From Vagococcus sp. CY52-2 (GTDB lineage Bacteria > Bacillota > Bacilli > Lactobacillales > Vagococcaceae), in assembly GCF_022655055.1 (NCBI RefSeq), contig NZ_CP093384.1, forward strand, positions 930,001 to 994,000: a stretch of DNA of 64,000 nucleotides, read 5' to 3'. Below the pieces are notes generated by a model. The model had not been told where the DNA came from, made no database searches, and saw nothing but the letters and a program-made list of their open reading frames with translations. Positions 15,612 through 38,425 of this stretch are shown here, one piece after another. The position numbers and the translations under genes are program-made. Positions within the stretch are counted from its first letter, which is position 1. Each line of letters opens with the position of its first letter.

Positions 15612-17456
15612 GTGAAATTAAGAGAAGATATTCGTAATGTGGCAATTATTGCCCACGTTGACCACGGTAAAACAACGTTGGTAGACGAATTGTTAAAACA
15701 ATCTGATACATTGGAAGGCCATACACAGTTACAAGAACGTGCAATGGACTCTGGTGATATTGAAAAAGAACGTGGTATTACGATTTTAGCTAAAAATACA
15801 GCCATCAACTATGCTGGAAAACACATCAACATCTTGGACACGCCAGGACATGCGGACTTTGGTGGAGAAGTTGAACGTATCATGAAAATGGTAGACGGTG
15901 TGGTGCTTGTTGTCGATGCGTATGAAGGAACAATGCCTCAAACACGTTTTGTGTTGAAAAAAGCCTTAGAGCAAAAATTAACACCAATCGTGGTTGTAAA
16001 TAAAATTGATAAACCAACTGCTCGTCCAGCTGAAGTAGTGGATGAAGTATTAGAGTTATTTATCGAGCTTGGTGCTGATGATGACCAATTAGAATTCCCA
16101 GTTGTTTATGCTGCAGCTGTAAACGGAACATCAAGTTTATCTGATGATCCAGCTGATCAAGAACACACAATGAATCACGTACTTGACTCTATTATTGAGC
16201 ATATTCCAGCTCCAGTTGATAATAGTGATGAGCCATTACAATTCCAAGTATCATTACTTGATTACAATGATTACGTTGGGCGTATTGGGATTGGTCGTGT
16301 ATTCCGTGGAACAATCAAAGTTGGGGACCAAGTTGCTTTAATGAAATTAGATGGTTCTGTTAAAAAGTTCCGTGTCACTAAATTATTAGGTTTCTTAGGC
16401 CTAACTCGTGTGGAAATCAATGAAGCTAAAGCGGGAGATTTAATTGCGGTTTCAGGTATGGAAGATATCTTCGTTGGAGAAACTGTTACACCTGTTGACC
16501 ACCAAGATGCTCTACCAATCCTACACATTGATGAGCCAACATTACAAATGACTTTCTTAGTAAACAACTCTCCATTTGCAGGTCGCGAAGGTAAATACGT
16601 GACGGCTCGTAAAATCGAAGAACGTCTACAAAACCAATTACAAACAGATGTGTCTCTAAAAGTTGAAGAAACTGAATCGCCAGATAAATGGATCGTTTCT
16701 GGACGTGGAGAATTGCATTTATCTATCTTAATAGAAAACATGCGTCGTGAAGGATACGAGTTACAAGTATCTCGTCCGAGTGTTATTTATCGTGACGTTG
16801 ATGGCGTATTATGTGAGCCATTTGAACGTGTGCAAATTGACACACCTGAAGAATACATGGGTGGGGTTATCGAGTCATTAGGTCAACGTAAAGCAGAAAT
16901 GCAAGACATGATCAACTCAGGTAACGGTCAAGTCCGCTTAATCTTCTTAGCTCCAGCCCGTGGATTAATTGGTTACTCAACTGAATTTATGTCATTAACT
17001 CGTGGATATGGTATCATGAACCACACGTTTGACTCATACCTACCAGTAATCTCTGGTTTAGTCAGTGGTCGTCGTAACGGTGCCTTAGTCTCTATCGACC
17101 AAGGTAAAGCTACAACTTACTCTATCATGAGTATTGAAGAACGTGGGACTGTCTTTGTTGAGCCAGGTACAGAAGTATACGAAGGAATGATCGTAGGTCA
17201 AAACTCTCGTGAAAATGACTTAGGTGTTAACATCACAAAAGCAAAACAAATGACTAACGTGCGTTCTGCAACAAAAGACCAAACATCAGTGATTAAAAAA
17301 CCAAAAATCTTAACATTAGAAGAATCATTACAATTCTTAAATGACGATGAATACTGTGAAGTAACACCAGAAAGCATTCGTTTAAGAAAACAAATCTTAA
17401 ACAAAGCTGAACGTGAAAAAGCAGCGAAACGTAAAAAACAAGCAGACAATGCTTAA
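15612..17456 (+). CDS. typA: Ribosome-associated GTPase TypA/BipA
   Basis: 614 residues, the usual length. Translational GTPase with G1 [11 protein letters not shown]2 ERGITI, G3 DTPGHADF, G4 NKID; followed by beta-barrel, EF-G-like domains and the BipA-specific C-terminal domain ([24 protein letters not shown]). Binds 70S ribosomes and supports ribosome assembly and growth under cold or stress. GTG start, 11 bases after AAGGAG, a long spacing. Rich in highly expressed codons. Confidence 0.97.
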
Positions 17457-17463
17457 TTAAATT

Positions 17464-17497
17464 GAAAGGACTGGCCTTTGTGGTCAGTCTTTTTTAT
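17464..17497 (+). terminator. Terminator after typA
   Basis: AAAGGACTGGCC and GGTCAGTCTTTT with a 5-base loop and one mismatch, followed by T-rich sequence. Confidence 0.82.
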
Positions 17498-17612
17498 TTC
17501 ATCGAATACTTATTGATCATGACAAAAAAATATTTTTTAATTAATAATCGTGAGTTATCCACAATAAAAGATTAGCAGAAAATATTTATAAAATCTGAAT
17601 TTAGCATATAAG

Positions 17613-17628
17613 ACACTATATATAGTGA
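17613..17628. promoter_or_regulatory. NrdR-box-like palindrome 1
   Basis: ACACTATATATAGTGA; the central 14 bases are a perfect palindrome. It fits the NrdR box consensus (acaCwATATaTwGtgt). The regulator gene nrdR is at 37961 in this window. Interpretation as NrdR site is inference. Confidence 0.6.
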
Positions 17629-17653
17629 GTTTTATAGCTTTTTAGAAAAATAT

Positions 17654-17669
17654 ACACTATATATAGTTG
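17654..17669. promoter_or_regulatory. NrdR-box-like palindrome 2
   Basis: ACACTATATATAGTTG, 41 bases (about four helical turns) downstream of the first, with one palindrome mismatch. NrdR sites normally occur as helically phased pairs, commonly three turns apart. Confidence 0.58.
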
Positions 17670-17772
17670 AAAAAATAATTTTTTAATAATAGAATGAAAC
17701 TGTTAGAAAAATGTCGATACAAATAAAATGTATTGAATAATTTTCTAAATATACAAGAATGGAGATGATTCG

Positions 17773-17787
17773 ATGAACTAATAATAA
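17773..17787 (+). other. Two-codon leader mini-ORF with triple stop
   Basis: GGAGATG (17761-17767) is correctly spaced before ATG-AAC-TAA-TAA-TAA. A ribosome would initiate and stop at once. It may regulate the downstream leader ORF or be chance in AT-rich DNA. Confidence 0.35.
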
Positions 17788-17820
17788 AAAATATTTACTG
17801 ATTAAAAAAGGGGGGATAAG

Positions 17821-18003
17821 ATGGTTATTGGCAGAAAAAAACCTTTTTCTCTTAGTCTTGGCGGACGAGAAAAAGGCAATAAGTATTCTTTTCTGTCTTT
17901 ATCATCTCAAAAATGTTGCTTTTTAGCAACAAACTTAGATGAAAAGAGGAGATTTTTTAATGAAAAATTTAAAAAAATATGTACTGAGTACACAGGAAAG
18001 TAG
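17821..18003 (+). CDS. Possible 60-residue leader peptide
   Basis: A short ORF with a very strong site (AAGGGGGG) before its ATG; basic, serine-rich (GRKKPFSLSLGGREKGNKYSFLSLSSQKCC), no family known. Its coding RNA contains two hairpins: 17842-17851 with 17867-17876 (10 bases) and 17914-17920 with 17925-17931 (7 bases, loop TTTT). It overlaps the start of the winged-helix-like gene by 44 bases in another frame. More likely a regulatory leader than a functional protein, but the initiation signal is better than that of many real genes. Confidence 0.4.
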   Translation: MVIGRKKPFSLSLGGREKGNKYSFLSLSSQKCCFLATNLDEKRRFFNEKFKKICTEYTGK

Positions 18004-18328
18004 TATTTATGAAATGATTCCTCATGGACTAGAGAACGCTAAGCGAGTTAAAGATATCTCAACACCGTTAAAACTTGATGAAAGAGAAGTGCATAATGCA
18101 ATTAATTCAATGTGCCATAAAAATATACCTATTTGTTCGTCAAGAAAAGAACCTTTTGGTGTGTACATTCCTTTAAACGAAGAAGAAAGACGAATAGGAT
18201 TAGTATCTTTAACTAATCAAGTAAATAATATGAGCGCTCGTGTTGAATTAGTTGGAAGAATAGATTTAAATTCATGGGAAGAAACGATTGAAACAACTTA
18301 TCAGGCTAAACTACATGATGAATACTAG
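17960..18328 (+). CDS. Small winged-helix-like protein of phage type
   Basis: 122 residues. ATG at 17960 follows AGAGGAG. A helical N-terminal half (SIYEMIPHGLENAKRVKDISTPLKLDEREVHNAINSMCHKNIPICSSR) followed by a wing-type segment PFGVYIPLNEEERRIGLVSLTNQVNNMSARVELV. The pattern of a short HTH, a P[IL]xSS/CSS turn, then GxYxPxNEEE and a long helix is familiar from small phage-encoded DNA-binding proteins. No phage genes adjoin it. It lies downstream of two NrdR-box-like sites and a structured leader, so control by nucleotide supply is possible. Function not known. Confidence 0.7.
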   Translation: MKNLKKYVLSTQESSIYEMIPHGLENAKRVKDISTPLKLDEREVHNAINSMCHKNIPICSSRKEPFGVYIPLNEEERRIGLVSLTNQVNNMSARVELVGRIDLNSWEETIETTYQAKLHDEY

Positions 18329-18821
18329 CAGTAACTAAAAAATCTAGTTATTAGCTTAATAGATTTTAGAAAAAATGAAATAGCATTATGAAATTTGTTA
18401 AAGGTCAATTAATTCTATAAAGAAAAAAATTAGCTAATAATCGTTTTAGAAAACATAAATATTAAAAAAGGTTACAAATGCTGATACAAATGATTTAAGT
18501 GATTGAGTACCTAGTCAATCAGTATAAAAAATTTGTATCAGCTTTAAAATTTGTCATGCATTTAAATGTAGGTTTTCCTCTTATTGTTGAATAGTCATGA
18601 TAATTTGATTTGAAAATACATTAAAAGTAAACAATAACATTAATGATTCCAAGCATAGATATTTTACCTTAAAGCATTTCTTTATAACTTTTTCACTATT
18701 TGTAATTTAATACGTTATATTAAAAAGTTACCATAAATAACACAAATCATACTGTTAATAGCATTTAAAAAAATTTGATTAGTGTTATAATAAGATTAAT
18801 GATGAAAAGTGAGGCGAATAT
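18329..18821. other. AT-rich gap with a nested inverted repeat
   Basis: 493 bases without a gene. The only structure seen is at 18480-18542: a perfect 12-base inverted repeat GCTGATACAAAT (18480-18491) / ATTTGTATCAGC (18531-18542) enclosing a second stem GATTGA (18501-18506) / TCAATC (18515-18520). No T-run follows directly on the plus strand. The trmK promoter (TGT-TATAAT, 18783-18791) is at the right end. Confidence 0.6.
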
Positions 18822-19523
18822 ATGGATTATCAACAATTATCAAACCGTTTGGAAGCAGTAGCAAATTTAGTGCCACAGGATAGCTTTTTAGCTGATATCG
18901 GCTCTGACCATGCGTATTTGCCTGCTCATTTAATATTAAATAATCAGATTACAGGAGCTATTGCCGGTGAAGTCGTCAAAGGTCCATATGAATCTGCTGA
19001 AAGATTGGTCAATGATTTATTACTGACAGATAAAATAGATGTTAGATTAGGAGATGGCTTAGAAGTCATCAAACCTTATGATAACGTAAGTGCTATCACG
19101 ATTTGTGGGATGGGTGGCACACTCATTCGAGATATTTTAGAACGTGGCAAACACAAGAAATGCCTAACACGTAAAGAATTATTAATCTTGCAACCAAACG
19201 TTGGCTCTCATGTCCTAAGACGTTGGTTGGTAGAGAATCATTACATCATTCAAGATGAAAAAATATTGAGTGAGAATGATAAAACATACGAAATTATTGT
19301 TGCTGAAGCATCTGATAAAAAAGTAGAGCTAACTGAATCAGAAGAATTATTTGGCCCCATTTTGATGAATGAATCATCTGAAGTGTTTAAAGCAAAATGG
19401 CAATTTGAATTAGAACAATATGAACGCGTAATACGTCAGTTGTCTCAATCTAAAACAAGCCAAGATGAAAAAATAGCACAAATCAATCATCAGTGTGATT
19501 TAATCAAGGAGGTACTGTCGTGA
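18822..19523 (+). CDS. trmK: tRNA (adenine-22-N1)-methyltransferase
   Basis: 233 residues, class I SAM-dependent methyltransferase that modifies A22 of tRNA. SAM-binding motif I is LADIGSDHAYLPAHLI; family segments ICGMGGTLIRDIL and LILQPNVGSHVLRRWL are present, with a helical C-terminal domain. Start ATG after GTGAGGCG. Overlaps the Nif3-like gene by four bases (GTGA); this gene pair is conserved in Firmicutes. Confidence 0.95.
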   Translation: MDYQQLSNRLEAVANLVPQDSFLADIGSDHAYLPAHLILNNQITGAIAGEVVKGPYESAERLVNDLLLTDKIDVRLGDGLEVIKPYDNVSAITICGMGGTLIRDILERGKHKKCLTRKELLILQPNVGSHVLRRWLVENHYIIQDEKILSENDKTYEIIVAEASDKKVELTESEELFGPILMNESSEVFKAKWQFELEQYERVIRQLSQSKTSQDEKIAQINHQCDLIKEVLS

Positions 19524-20638
19524 AAATAACAGGAGCTGAATTTATTAAACAATTTGAATCAGTCGTCCCACTAGAACTTGCTGAAGATAATGATCCAGTT
19601 GGGTTACATATTGGCACGCTTAATAAACCGATTAATCGTGTGATGATGACACTAGATGTTAGACCTGATGTGGTGCAAGAAGCGATTGATAAAAAGATTG
19701 ATTTAATCGTGGCGAAACATCCGCCGATTTTTCGTCCAGTGAAGCATTTGTTGGTCGATGATTTTCAAACTAAAATGTATGCTGATTTATTAAAGCATGA
19801 CATCGCCGTCTACGCTGCACATACTAACATGGATATTGTCGATAATGGGTTGAATGACTTGTTTTGTGAGATGTTGGGTATTGACGTGACGGATTATTTA
19901 CGTCAAACTCACGAATATTTTTACCGTAAGTTAGTAGTTTATGTGCCGACAACTCATGCAGAGTCACTACGAGAAGCATTTGGTGCTGCAGGCATCGGTG
20001 CTTACCATGATTATGATTACACAAGTTTTTCATCTAGCGGAACAGGTCGTTTTCGTCCACTTGAAAAGGCTCAACCAGCAATTGGTGAGAATAACGAGCT
20101 GACAAGTGTTGAAGAAGAAAAAATTGAAGTGATGTTTTTACCCCAAGAGTACCCAACAGTGCTGTCAATTATTAATGAGTATCACCCGTATGAAGAGCCG
20201 ATGTTTGATATTTTCCCACTAGAAAATATATCAAAAACATATGGAATCGGTCGTATGGGTACTCTACCACAACCAATGCCATTGCTTGATTTTGTTGAAA
20301 AAGTTAAACAGACATTTGGCTTAAATGCCATTCGTTTAACGACTGACACAAAAGATAAACAAGTAAAAACAGTGGCTATTTGTGGTGGTAGTGGTGAGAA
20401 ATTTTATAAAGACGCTCTTAAAAAAGGGGCAGATGTGTATATTACCGGAGATGTGTATTATCATACGGCTCATGATATGATGGAAGAAGGGTTATCAGTG
20501 ATTGACCCAGGACATTATATAGAGTCAGTTTGTAAAAAATACTATGTTGAGTTATTTAATCAATGGAAACAACAAAATGATTGGGATGTCACGTTTATCG
20601 AAAGTGACGTGAATACTAATCCATTTGAAATAATATAA
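19520..20638 (+). CDS. Nif3-like dinuclear metal centre protein (GTP cyclohydrolase I type 2 homolog)
   Basis: 372 residues, long form with an inserted PII/CutA-like middle domain (about 130-235), as in Firmicutes. Metal-binding residues are in KHPPIF, AAHTNMD and the C-terminal [11 protein letters not shown] and DPGHYIE segments. The biochemical role is unresolved; the family name includes GTP cyclohydrolase I type 2, but this is not proven. GTG start with GGAGG inside the trmK gene; translationally coupled. Confidence 0.93.
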
Positions 20639-36036: not shown

Positions 36037-37653
36037 TTATTCTGTTGCTTTATCTTTTCGTTTATAAAGACCAAACGTTAAAATAAAACTAATAAACATA
36101 ATAATGGAGGCAATACCAATTGTTTTAACCACACTATTTGTAAAGTTGTGATCTAATTTTGTAACGATATTAGCTTGAATTGATTTTGTTAAATGCAATG
36201 TTTCAGGATTTGATTGTTTTAACACACGAATAGATGATCCTGCACTATCAATCACACTTGATTCAAGTGAATGTTGGACTTGTGTTGGTAATCCAACATT
36301 GTCTAACGTATTTGGAATATCATGTTGTAATTGTAAACCAAATACTGTTCCAATAATCGCAATTCCTAAAGCTGAACCAATTTGACGAACAGTGGATTGA
36401 ATACTTGATCCTTGACCAGATTGAGCAGGAGGCACATCTTTTAATACAATTGACGTTAATTGAGCAGATGCAAAACCTAATCCGATACCGTATACGACTA
36501 ACCAAACAATAATCCAAGTTAAGCCATTATTTGGATCAACGGTTTTAAAGAAACCGAAAAATCCAAGTGTTTCTAGGAATAATCCAAGAGAAACAACAAA
36601 TGAAGCAGATGTTTTTTCAACAATAAAGGATGCCATTCCACCAGCTAAAAAGGCACCAAGTCCCATCATCGCTAAAATAGCACCTGATTTAATTGGACTA
36701 AGTGTTAAAATATTTTGTAAAAATAGTGGTAATAAGAATAATAAACCTGATTCCCCAATTGCTACAATTCCTGCAATCGTGTTACCCAATGAAAAACTTT
36801 TGAATTTAAATAGTGATAAATCAAGTAAATGAGATTTATTTGTTTTACTTAGATGTGCTTCCCAAACTAAGAATAAAGCAAAGAAAATAGCTCCTACAAC
36901 AAGTAGAGTTGGGATGATAGATAAGTTAAAGAGAGTGGGATGATCGCCTTTTACGTGCCACCAACCATAATTACGTCCTTCAATAATACCAAATACTAAT
37001 AAAATTAACCCAATAGTTGATAAAATAAAGCCAATAAAATCAAAACCGTTCGTCATCTTTTCACCATAAGTTTCAGGTAAAAATTTTAAAGCCGCTAAAA
37101 TAATAAATAATCCAATTGGTAAATTAATCCAGAAAATCCAATGCCATGTCATATAAGTGGTAAAATACCCACCTAACAATGGTCCAATAGCTGCCATACC
37201 AGAAATCACTGAGCCCCATACAGCAAAAGCGACAATACGATCTTTTCCAAAGAACAGTGCATTAACAGCTGATAAGGTAGTTGGTAAAACCGTAGCTCCT
37301 CCAATACCTTGCATGGTTCTAGCCGCTAACATAAAGGTAATATCTTTTGAAAAACTAGCCATTATAGAGCCAACTAAAAAAATAATGATTCCAGTAATGA
37401 GCATTTTTTTTCGACCAAAATTATCTGCAATGCGTCCCATGGTAATTAATAAAGAAGAGAAAATTAAAGAATAAAGCGTAATAATCCATTCAGCATCTGT
37501 AAAAGATAATTTTAAATCTTTCATAATGACGGGTAAAGACACATTAACAATGGTTCCATCTATTACAACTAGAGATACAGACAGAGCGAGTACGGCTAAT
37601 GCCCACCATTTATGTTTGACAGTTTGTTGTTGTGCAGTTGTAGTATCTGCCAC
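36037..37653 (-). CDS. MFS drug exporter, DHA2 (EmrB/QacA) family
   Basis: 538 residues, 14 membrane helices, which is the DHA2 count. Motif A MGRIADNFGRKKMLI, motif C-like GPLLGGYFTTYMTWHWIFWINLPIGL, and motif D1 near VVIDGTIVNVSLPVI are present. Probably proton-driven export of drugs or toxic organics; substrate not predictable. GTG at 37653 follows GAGGTG with 6-base spacing; the GTG at 37662 lies in that site. Divergent from nrdR with a palindrome-rich gap; no regulator gene adjacent. Confidence 0.92.
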   Translation of the reverse strand: MADTTTAQQQTVKHKWWALAVLALSVSLVVIDGTIVNVSLPVIMKDLKLSFTDAEWIITLYSLIFSSLLITMGRIADNFGRKKMLITGIIIFLVGSIMASFSKDITFMLAARTMQGIGGATVLPTTLSAVNALFFGKDRIVAFAVWGSVISGMAAIGPLLGGYFTTYMTWHWIFWINLPIGLFIILAALKFLPETYGEKMTNGFDFIGFILSTIGLILLVFGIIEGRNYGWWHVKGDHPTLFNLSIIPTLLVVGAIFFALFLVWEAHLSKTNKSHLLDLSLFKFKSFSLGNTIAGIVAIGESGLLFLLPLFLQNILTLSPIKSGAILAMMGLGAFLAGGMASFIVEKTSASFVVSLGLFLETLGFFGFFKTVDPNNGLTWIIVWLVVYGIGLGFASAQLTSIVLKDVPPAQSGQGSSIQSTVRQIGSALGIAIIGTVFGLQLQHDIPNTLDNVGLPTQVQHSLESSVIDSAGSSIRVLKQSNPETLHLTKSIQANIVTKLDHNFTNSVVKTIGIASIIMFISFILTFGLYKRKDKATE

Positions 37654-37704
37654 ATTGAACACCTCACTTAATATAGTTATTTACGTTTCTATACTACACC
37701 TAAA

Positions 37705-37719
37705 GTGACGATGTGTCAC
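37705..37719. promoter_or_regulatory. Inverted repeat near the exporter promoter
   Basis: GTGAC-GATGT-GTCAC, about 50 bases upstream of the exporter start, next to a minus-strand TATAGA-type -10. A repressor site is plausible. Confidence 0.35.
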
Positions 37720-37760
37720 ACAGTTTGCGATATTAACACATATTTTTTACATAGTCATAA

Positions 37761-37794
37761 AATAGTCACTATTTAAAGGTAAATAGTCACTATT
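37761..37794. repeat. Two tandem palindromes AATAGTCACTATT
   Basis: Identical 13-base palindromes at 37761-37773 and 37782-37794, 21 bases (two helical turns) apart, between the exporter and nrdR. A related element AATAGT-GCT-ACTATT lies at 37910-37924 and a partial one at about 37889. Phasing suggests cooperative binding of a regulator. Confidence 0.65.
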
Positions 37795-37960
37795 AAATAC
37801 AAAATAATTAGAAAAGATTTCTTGTTTTTTAGTATGGAGAAAAATTTGTTATAATGGCTTAATCTGTCTAAACTAGTTTGCCTATACCAATAGTGGTGTT
37901 ACATGTTATAATAGTGCTACTATTTTGTCTATTGAGACAGTTTATGAAGAGGTGAAAAAA

Positions 37961-38425
37961 ATGCAATGTCCAAAATGTAGCTATAATGGATCGCGAGTAG
38001 TAGATAGTCGTCCTGCAGATGACAATCGTGCTATTCGTCGTAGAAGAGAATGTGAAAAGTGTGGCTTTCGTTTTACCACATTCGAGCGTATTGAAGTTGC
38101 TCCTTTACTTGTTATAAAGAAAAATGGGGCAAGAGAAGAGTTTAATCGCGAAAAAATACTAAGAGGTTTGGTCCGTTCAGCTGAAAAAAGACCAGTGTCA
38201 ATGGATCAGATGGAACAAGTCGTTGAACGCATAGAAAATAGAGTCCGACAAAAAGGAGATAATGAAGTATCGACGAATCTAATTGGAGAATATGTCATGG
38301 AAGAATTAGTCAATCTTGATGAGATTGCCTATATTCGTTTTGCCAGTGTCTATCGCCAGTTTAAAGATATGAGTGTCTTTTTGAAAGAATTACAAGAAAT
38401 TATTGATAAAGAAAAACATGATTAG
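37961..38425 (+). CDS. nrdR: Transcriptional repressor NrdR
   Basis: 154 residues. Zinc ribbon MQCPKC...[17 protein letters not shown] at 1-45, followed by the ATP-cone domain (about 49-139, [29 protein letters not shown]). It senses ATP/dATP and represses ribonucleotide reductase genes at NrdR boxes. ATG after GAGGTG is used, not the TTG at 37925. Forms an operon with dnaB and dnaI. Two extended -10 elements lie upstream (37850-37855 and 37907-37912), the second within the AATAGT palindrome. Confidence 0.97.

Follow-up and report, generated by a model that had tools for sequence, protein, structure and literature searches.

NrdR has been characterised as a repressor that acts specifically on ribonucleotide reductase (RNR) genes (PMC9110341, PMC12051234). 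Its operators at nrdDG and nrdHEF in Streptococcus and Listeria are paired palindromic boxes in helical phase, with a spacer of 25-26 bp in most streptococci and of 15-16 bp in most bacteria (PMC12051234), and the NrdR consensus has been given as acaCwAtATaTwGtgt (PMC4009431). Four NrdR proteins have a second binding optimum at a spacer of 24-27 bp, the binding of SpnNrdR to its native sites (25-26 bp) is about 13 times weaker than to sites with 16 bp, and box 2 of S. pneumoniae nrdDG includes the -35 element (PMC12051234). NrdR operators at nrd operons, those with four-turn spacing included, are already known. In pneumococcus, RNA-seq revealed that phage infection raises operons with NrdR sites, one of which is non-RNR: SPD_1594-1595, where the site lies before a gene labelled an unknown transcriptional regulator, was raised together with the RNR operons (PMC6755750).

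The locus presented here follows this configuration. In the window, by which we mean the whole stretch of 64,000 nucleotides of Vagococcus sp. CY52-2 DNA that was analysed, two palindromic boxes in helical phase are separated by 25 bp, close to the spacer of most streptococci (PMC12051234); however, unlike the nrdDG and nrdHEF operators, they precede a mobile-type winged-helix gene and not ribonucleotide reductase. The arrangement recalls SPD_1594-1595, with an NrdR site before a gene that here is predicted to encode a winged-helix protein; the two are likened by description alone, and whereas SPD_1594-1595 is not known to be mobile DNA, the window gene lies on mobile-looking DNA (PMC6755750). 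What appears to be new here is an NrdR-type operator with a probable promoter on satellite-related extra DNA. We consider it probable that the pair is a genuine, nrdD-like NrdR operator placed over a sigma-A promoter on DNA of the phage-satellite type, that it drives a leader and the 122-residue winged-helix gene, and that it is released when dATP falls, the promoter being most likely derived from nrdD. The basis, as read from the sequence, consists of the box pair, its spacing, the promoter hexamers, the extra DNA, the full-length gene, the predicted fold and the presence of nrdR in the genome. The elements of the locus are the following:

15612-17456, + strand: typA/bipA, the left flank (TIGR01394, E=2.7e-284)
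17496-18732, no strand: a probable insert, comprising about 1,237 bp of extra DNA (blastn against the trmK loci of relatives)
17613-17628, + strand: NrdR box 1, ACACTATATATAGTGA (consensus match, pair statistics)
17654-17669, + strand: NrdR box 2, ACACTATATATAGTTG, the final three bases of which open the -35 (consensus match, pair statistics)
17667-17695, + strand: predicted sigma-A promoter, TTGAAA (17667-17672), 17 bp, TAGAAT (17690-17695) (consensus match only)
17703-17959, + strand: putative 5' leader, its start placed from the -10
17821-18003, + strand: putative small ORF of 60 aa within the leader, overlapping the main ORF (ORF list)
17960-18328, + strand: predicted winged-helix protein of 122 aa, PHROG 2113, full length, with GAGGAG 5' of the ATG (profile, AlphaFold2, Foldseek)
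18822-19523, + strand: the right flank, a putative trmK-like gene, with no NCBIfam match

The two 16-base elements fitting the NrdR consensus that the sequence-only reading had reported 41 bases apart are exactly where it placed them. The distance between their starts is 41 bp, about four helical turns, and compared with ACACWATATATWGTGT box 1 has one mismatch and box 2 has two. Both fit the consensus acaCwAtATaTwGtgt with their centres in helical phase; the right end of box 2 deviates from it, and box 2 of the strain's own nrdD does likewise. The window has no other pair of this quality (3 or fewer mismatches over both boxes, at a distance of 30-33 or 40-43 bp), and in sequence generated with a first-order Markov model such pairs were absent both from 8.0 Mb resembling the insert and from 6.0 Mb resembling the window. 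The genome, 2.1 Mb in two contigs, contains the exact pattern ACTATATATAGT-N27-32-ACTATATATAGT twice, here and at C1:378443 before nrdD, and the reversed control of this core-pair pattern has no matches. Loose single 16-mers (at most 3 mismatches) are not enriched in the genome, with 15 forward matches versus 20 for the reversed control, so the evidence lies in the pair and not in the single box. The 14-base core has 21 matches in the window versus 12.1 expected. A single box at C1:47582 was set aside, being inside a 320-aa ORF.

Comparison with the nrd operons of the same genome, in which a clearly different box sequence would have spoken against NrdR, favoured the proposal. The pair of the nrdD promoter, ATACTATATATAGTGT / ATACTATATATAGTTG, 42 bp apart, is nearly identical to the window pair, and that of nrdHIEF, ACACTAGATATTGTGT / CTACTATCTATTGTGT, 31 bp apart, is related to it. 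The large chain of nrdHIEF (C1:197331-198923) is class Ib according to NCBIfam, which also confirmed NrdD, NrdE and NrdR; H, I and F of this operon were named by eye. The putative repressor is encoded within the window:

37925-38425, + strand: nrdR, followed by a dnaB-like gene and then dnaI (TIGR00244, E=6.6e-60; ATP-cone match)

For the genes after nrdR, NCBIfam placed DnaI above its cut-off and DnaB below it, and the second ATP-cone match of the genome is the gene called NrdD by NCBIfam. Autoregulation of nrdR found no support, as 36501-38300 contains no pair at the tested spacings whose two boxes together have 8 mismatches or fewer. The sequence-only reading had also taken the four-turn spacing as unusual, and this did not hold: a pair with a 24-26 bp spacer is present in all nine nrdD promoters fetched by similarity to the insert, a set biased by that choice and mostly named by eye, and most streptococci share this spacing (PMC12051234). 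The spacing is thus ordinary here and was dismissed as a sign of novelty. Two of the nine promoters (L052 and L055) have weak pairs with 7 mismatches in total. In another genome, G005, nrdHIEF (L219) has the exact core pair at 1501-1539, off-phase at 27 bp, and also a 31-bp pair, in phase, that starts at 1318.

The -35 hexamer TTGAAA begins in the final three bases of box 2 both in the window and at nrdD, where the layout read by eye is TTGAAA, 17 bp and TAAGAT, and the overlap of box 2 with the predicted -35 repeats what is described for S. pneumoniae nrdDG (PMC12051234). Such hexamers are common, with 12 promoter-like sites found in the region versus 10.0 expected, so that the predicted promoter draws on its layout and not on its score. 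Downstream, the segment 17660-17970 folds as RNA with a z-score of -4.3 against 100 shuffles. The 60-aa ORF has no Pfam or PHROG match. As to known RNA families, the two matches obtained for the leader were below threshold and both map to the end of the typA gene and the terminator of that gene, so this identity was discarded.

The 122-residue protein that the sequence-only reading had described as winged-helix-like, and of phage type, is indeed a predicted winged-helix protein of the phage or satellite type. It matches PHROG 2113 with E=6.6e-19 (residues 9-115 of the 129-aa form against profile positions 2-109 of 113). The AlphaFold2 model, built from 9 sequences with a mean pLDDT of 84.4, has a winged helix followed by a long C-terminal helix, with helices at 11-19, 30-37 and 41-53 and strands at 59-61 and 67-70, that is, three helices and a beta hairpin. 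Foldseek gave weak matches of the MarR/GntR type in the PDB (best E 1.3e-3, TM about 0.4) and 11 viral models in BFVD at E<=0.001. The protein has no Pfam match above the cut-off and none in NCBIfam or PADLOC, and for lack of a PADLOC match a known defence protein was rejected as its identity. Relatives found by tblastn lie in 156 phage records, 155 of Streptococcus and one of Campylobacter, the best 30 being all Streptococcus satellite phages with 32-36% identity. Further relatives are present in 3 of the 13 other genomes of the genus and in 8 loci of named genomes, including V. elongatus (45%) and Enterococcus; among these eight, the match in a Holosporales MAG is short and weak, and two others are places already counted in the genus genomes. 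One relative on a Lactiplantibacillus plasmid, annotated as a DNA replication protein, lies near primase and VapE-family genes, and in the V. elongatus element (L041) the gene precedes two genes with primase/helicase PHROG matches. Only these neighbouring genes in relatives would suggest a replication role for the winged-helix protein, and a domesticated phage function is possible.

The PHROG 2113 genes of the Streptococcus satellite phages (Javan) and of the V. elongatus element belong to the same family as the window gene, with about 32-46% identity. In those elements, however, the gene sits within a multi-gene element, whereas the window gene stands alone, and the satellite and V. elongatus relatives examined lack the NrdR pair that the window gene has. 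A scan for box pairs with 6 mismatches or fewer found none near relatives of the gene in 13 loci, which amount to 11 distinct places (L020/L045 and L021/L046 being the same places) and 96.8 kb with overlaps; as a positive control, the same scan found pairs in 10 of 12 nrd loci. This lack of conservation is one of the outcomes that the sequence-only reading had named as refuting its proposal, and the gene is not a conserved NrdR target. With no pair at any of these places, the NrdR control would be particular to the window DNA and not to the family, and the PHROG 2113 family offers no evolutionary support for it.

The gene and its putative operator lie in DNA that the closest relatives lack. 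By blastn, the window segments 16501-17495 and 18733-19600 match stretches that are 1 base apart in G009, G012 and G001, and in G008 the flank matches are separated by about 85 other bases (L028). These four genomes are the closest relatives, with a TrmK-like protein 93-95% identical, and all of them are devoid of the extra DNA. All 14 genomes of the genus encode the TrmK-like protein; the remaining nine have a different neighbourhood, or one that falls outside the stretch compared. The extra DNA was thus found in one genome only, with one genome per species compared. By eye, the ends of the roughly 85 bases at the typA-trmK junction of G008 resemble the edges of the insert and could be a deletion scar, so DNA may have been lost in that genome rather than gained in the window strain. 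Among 29 family genomes, the sequences that match the insert best, itself aside, are nrdD promoters from within its clade, at 87% in G001, 86% over about 61 bases in the strain itself (E 8.8e-12) and 82% in G008, from which we infer that the insert promoter was likely copied or captured from a Vagococcus nrdD promoter, a derivation that in such AT-rich DNA is not proved. One DNA relative of the insert, matching 91 query bases, was found in an uncultured phage, and none in plasmids. The insert may be a satellite fragment; the combination of integrase, replication module and regulatory genes of a PICI-like satellite is not in it, since it has one recognisable gene and no integrase. A long imperfect palindrome at 18477-18545, 3' of the ORF and within the extra DNA, could be a terminator or the end of an element.

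The leader contains a hairpin whose loop was also seen on other mobile DNA:

17842-17876, + strand: leader hairpin CCTTTTTCTC-loop TTAGTCTTGGCGGAC-GAGAAAAAGG (z-score -3.7 on this strand)

The loop TTAGTCTTGGCGGAC is found with different stems around it in the leader, in phage contig C2 of the strain (L061:3113-3133), in two other Lactobacillales loci, L184 at about 1490-1527 and L188 at about 1490-1528, and, with one base less, in a CRISPR spacer of G010 (L098, at about 1498-1528). The ungapped stems, measured by script, have 10 pairs in the window, 13 in L188, 6 in the G010 spacer, 3 in C2 and 1 in L184. Folding supports a hairpin in L184, L188 and the window, with z-scores from -2.5 at the weakest to -4.4 (better strand or both), and gave no support for C2 and the G010 spacer (z 0.1, -0.6 and -0.6). 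In viral contigs, the two exact loop patterns have no matches, and the shorter pattern matched 17 contigs, none with an ungapped stem of more than 5 pairs. In 395 Lactobacillales genomes there are 11 loop matches in 9 genomes, namely the strain's C1, its C2 twice, G010, G112, G087 and five apparently by chance. On these pattern searches the loop was rejected as a widespread phage element. Contig C2 of the strain (G000; 78,932 bases) contains two stretches (L061 and L062) 39,466 bases apart that share 99.985% identity across an alignment of 6,536 bases with one gap, both carrying terminase genes, as if a phage of about 39.5 kb had been assembled as a dimer.

Pairs of the same kind occur in viral DNA. 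The exact core pair is present in 35 IMG/VR viral contigs, versus 3 (distances 32, 36 and 36) for a control palindrome pair of equal base composition, TACATATATGTA. With a wider pattern, 80 of the 92 matching stretches being listed, the set comprises 105 loci (L063-L097 and L102-L171) and 107 pairs, or 94 after dropping copies with identical flanks. The distances of these distinct pairs concentrate at three and four helical turns, with 63 at 31-33 bp, a further 16 at 41-43 bp and the remaining 15 at other distances; 79 of 94 at such positions would have a chance of about 7e-29 if distances were uniform over 25-45 bp, a rough figure given that the first pattern admitted only 27-45 bp and that related phages may count repeatedly. 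None of the 84 in-phase viral pairs (30-33 or 40-43 bp) falls within an ORF longer than 150 aa, a raw count with no background, and the off-phase pair of L074 falls within a 282-aa ORF. With the strain's NrdD (N-terminal 484 aa), NrdE, NrdF, NrdI and NrdR as phmmer queries, 3 of the 105 viral loci yielded RNR relatives, each of them an NrdD, which is an undercount because the loci are contig pieces and NrdG, NrdH and class II enzymes were not queries. For the first genes facing away from the pair (74 of 76, duplicates removed), the matches listed include HTH regulators, a DNA methyltransferase, portal and head-protease proteins, RNase H/exonuclease and one Gad1 anti-defence protein, among others, and no RNR family appears in the best 25 of 28 Pfam matches or of 87 PHROG matches. 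Of the 395 Lactobacillales genomes, 9 contain the exact core pair, in 10 copies altogether: 6 precede nrdD, 1 precedes nrdHIEF (off-phase at 27 bp) and 3 lie elsewhere, in the window, L218 and L220. L218 (pair at 1501-1544) and L220 (pair at 1501-1543) have no RNR match nearby, and the gene next to the latter resembles, by eye, a LOG-family protein. A literature search over titles and the beginnings of abstracts, mostly outside subscription journals, found no reports of NrdR boxes in phage genomes.

If the pair is the nrdD-like operator that we propose, then under ample dATP an NrdR tetramer with dATP and ATP would occupy both boxes and block RNA polymerase. A drop in dATP, brought about by phage replication, RNR inhibition or replication stress, would lift this repression along with that of the nrd operons, and the 122-residue protein would be made. 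As phage infection raises NrdR-site operons in pneumococcus (PMC6755750), the window gene may switch on when dATP falls. The arrangement would have arisen when the Vagococcus nrdD promoter was copied onto, or captured by, mobile DNA. An alternative is a relic, in which decaying mobile DNA carries a copy of the nrdD promoter that NrdR may still bind, the gene being useless to the cell. The small size of the DNA, with one recognisable gene and no integrase, its occurrence in one genome, the closeness of its promoter to the nrdD promoters of the same clade, the pair not being conserved with the gene and the possible loss in G008 all fit such a relic, but both boxes and the promoter are intact, as is the ORF, which is full length and has a ribosome-binding site, and we regard a relic as rather unlikely.

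The hairpin raises a different explanation, that the functional product is the leader RNA, whose loop would be complementary to RNA transcribed from the phage contig C2, so that it would act as an NrdR-switched antisense or decoy. The 21-base exact match in C2, with the larger ORFs around it on the opposite strand, the terminase genes of that contig and a leader that folds better than its shuffles (z -4.3) speak in its favour. However, the C2 stretch folds no better than shuffles on either strand (z 0.1 and -0.6), the loop in L184 and L188 has the orientation of the neighbouring genes, and that of L188 looks like an ordinary terminator; since folding of C2 and the spacer gave no support, we hold this explanation to be very improbable. 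Nor do we give much credit to the boxes being those of a different regulator whose palindrome is similar, or to a chance resemblance: the core is indeed a TA-rich palindrome in AT-rich DNA and loose single sites are not enriched, but the zero pairs in 14 Mb of model sequence, the near identity with the boxes and promoter layout of the strain's own nrdD and the helical spacing make it very unlikely.

Beyond this locus, it is conceivable, though doubtful, that phages and satellites have repeatedly taken over the host NrdR switch as a dATP gauge and that the window DNA is an infection-responsive cassette for the winged-helix protein, a proposal that draws on the spacing statistics and on one published infection experiment in another species. 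If true, genes behind NrdR pairs would be silent while dATP is plentiful and released when replication, either of the phage or satellite that carries them or of an invading phage, drains it, and the winged-helix protein of the window could act on the replication of phages or satellites, as a regulator or by interfering with it. The clean operator at a mobile-type gene, together with the many phased viral pairs, suggests that the dATP sensor of the cell is also read by mobile DNA, and an NrdR pair would be a simple means for a prophage, a satellite or a defence gene to sense phage replication.
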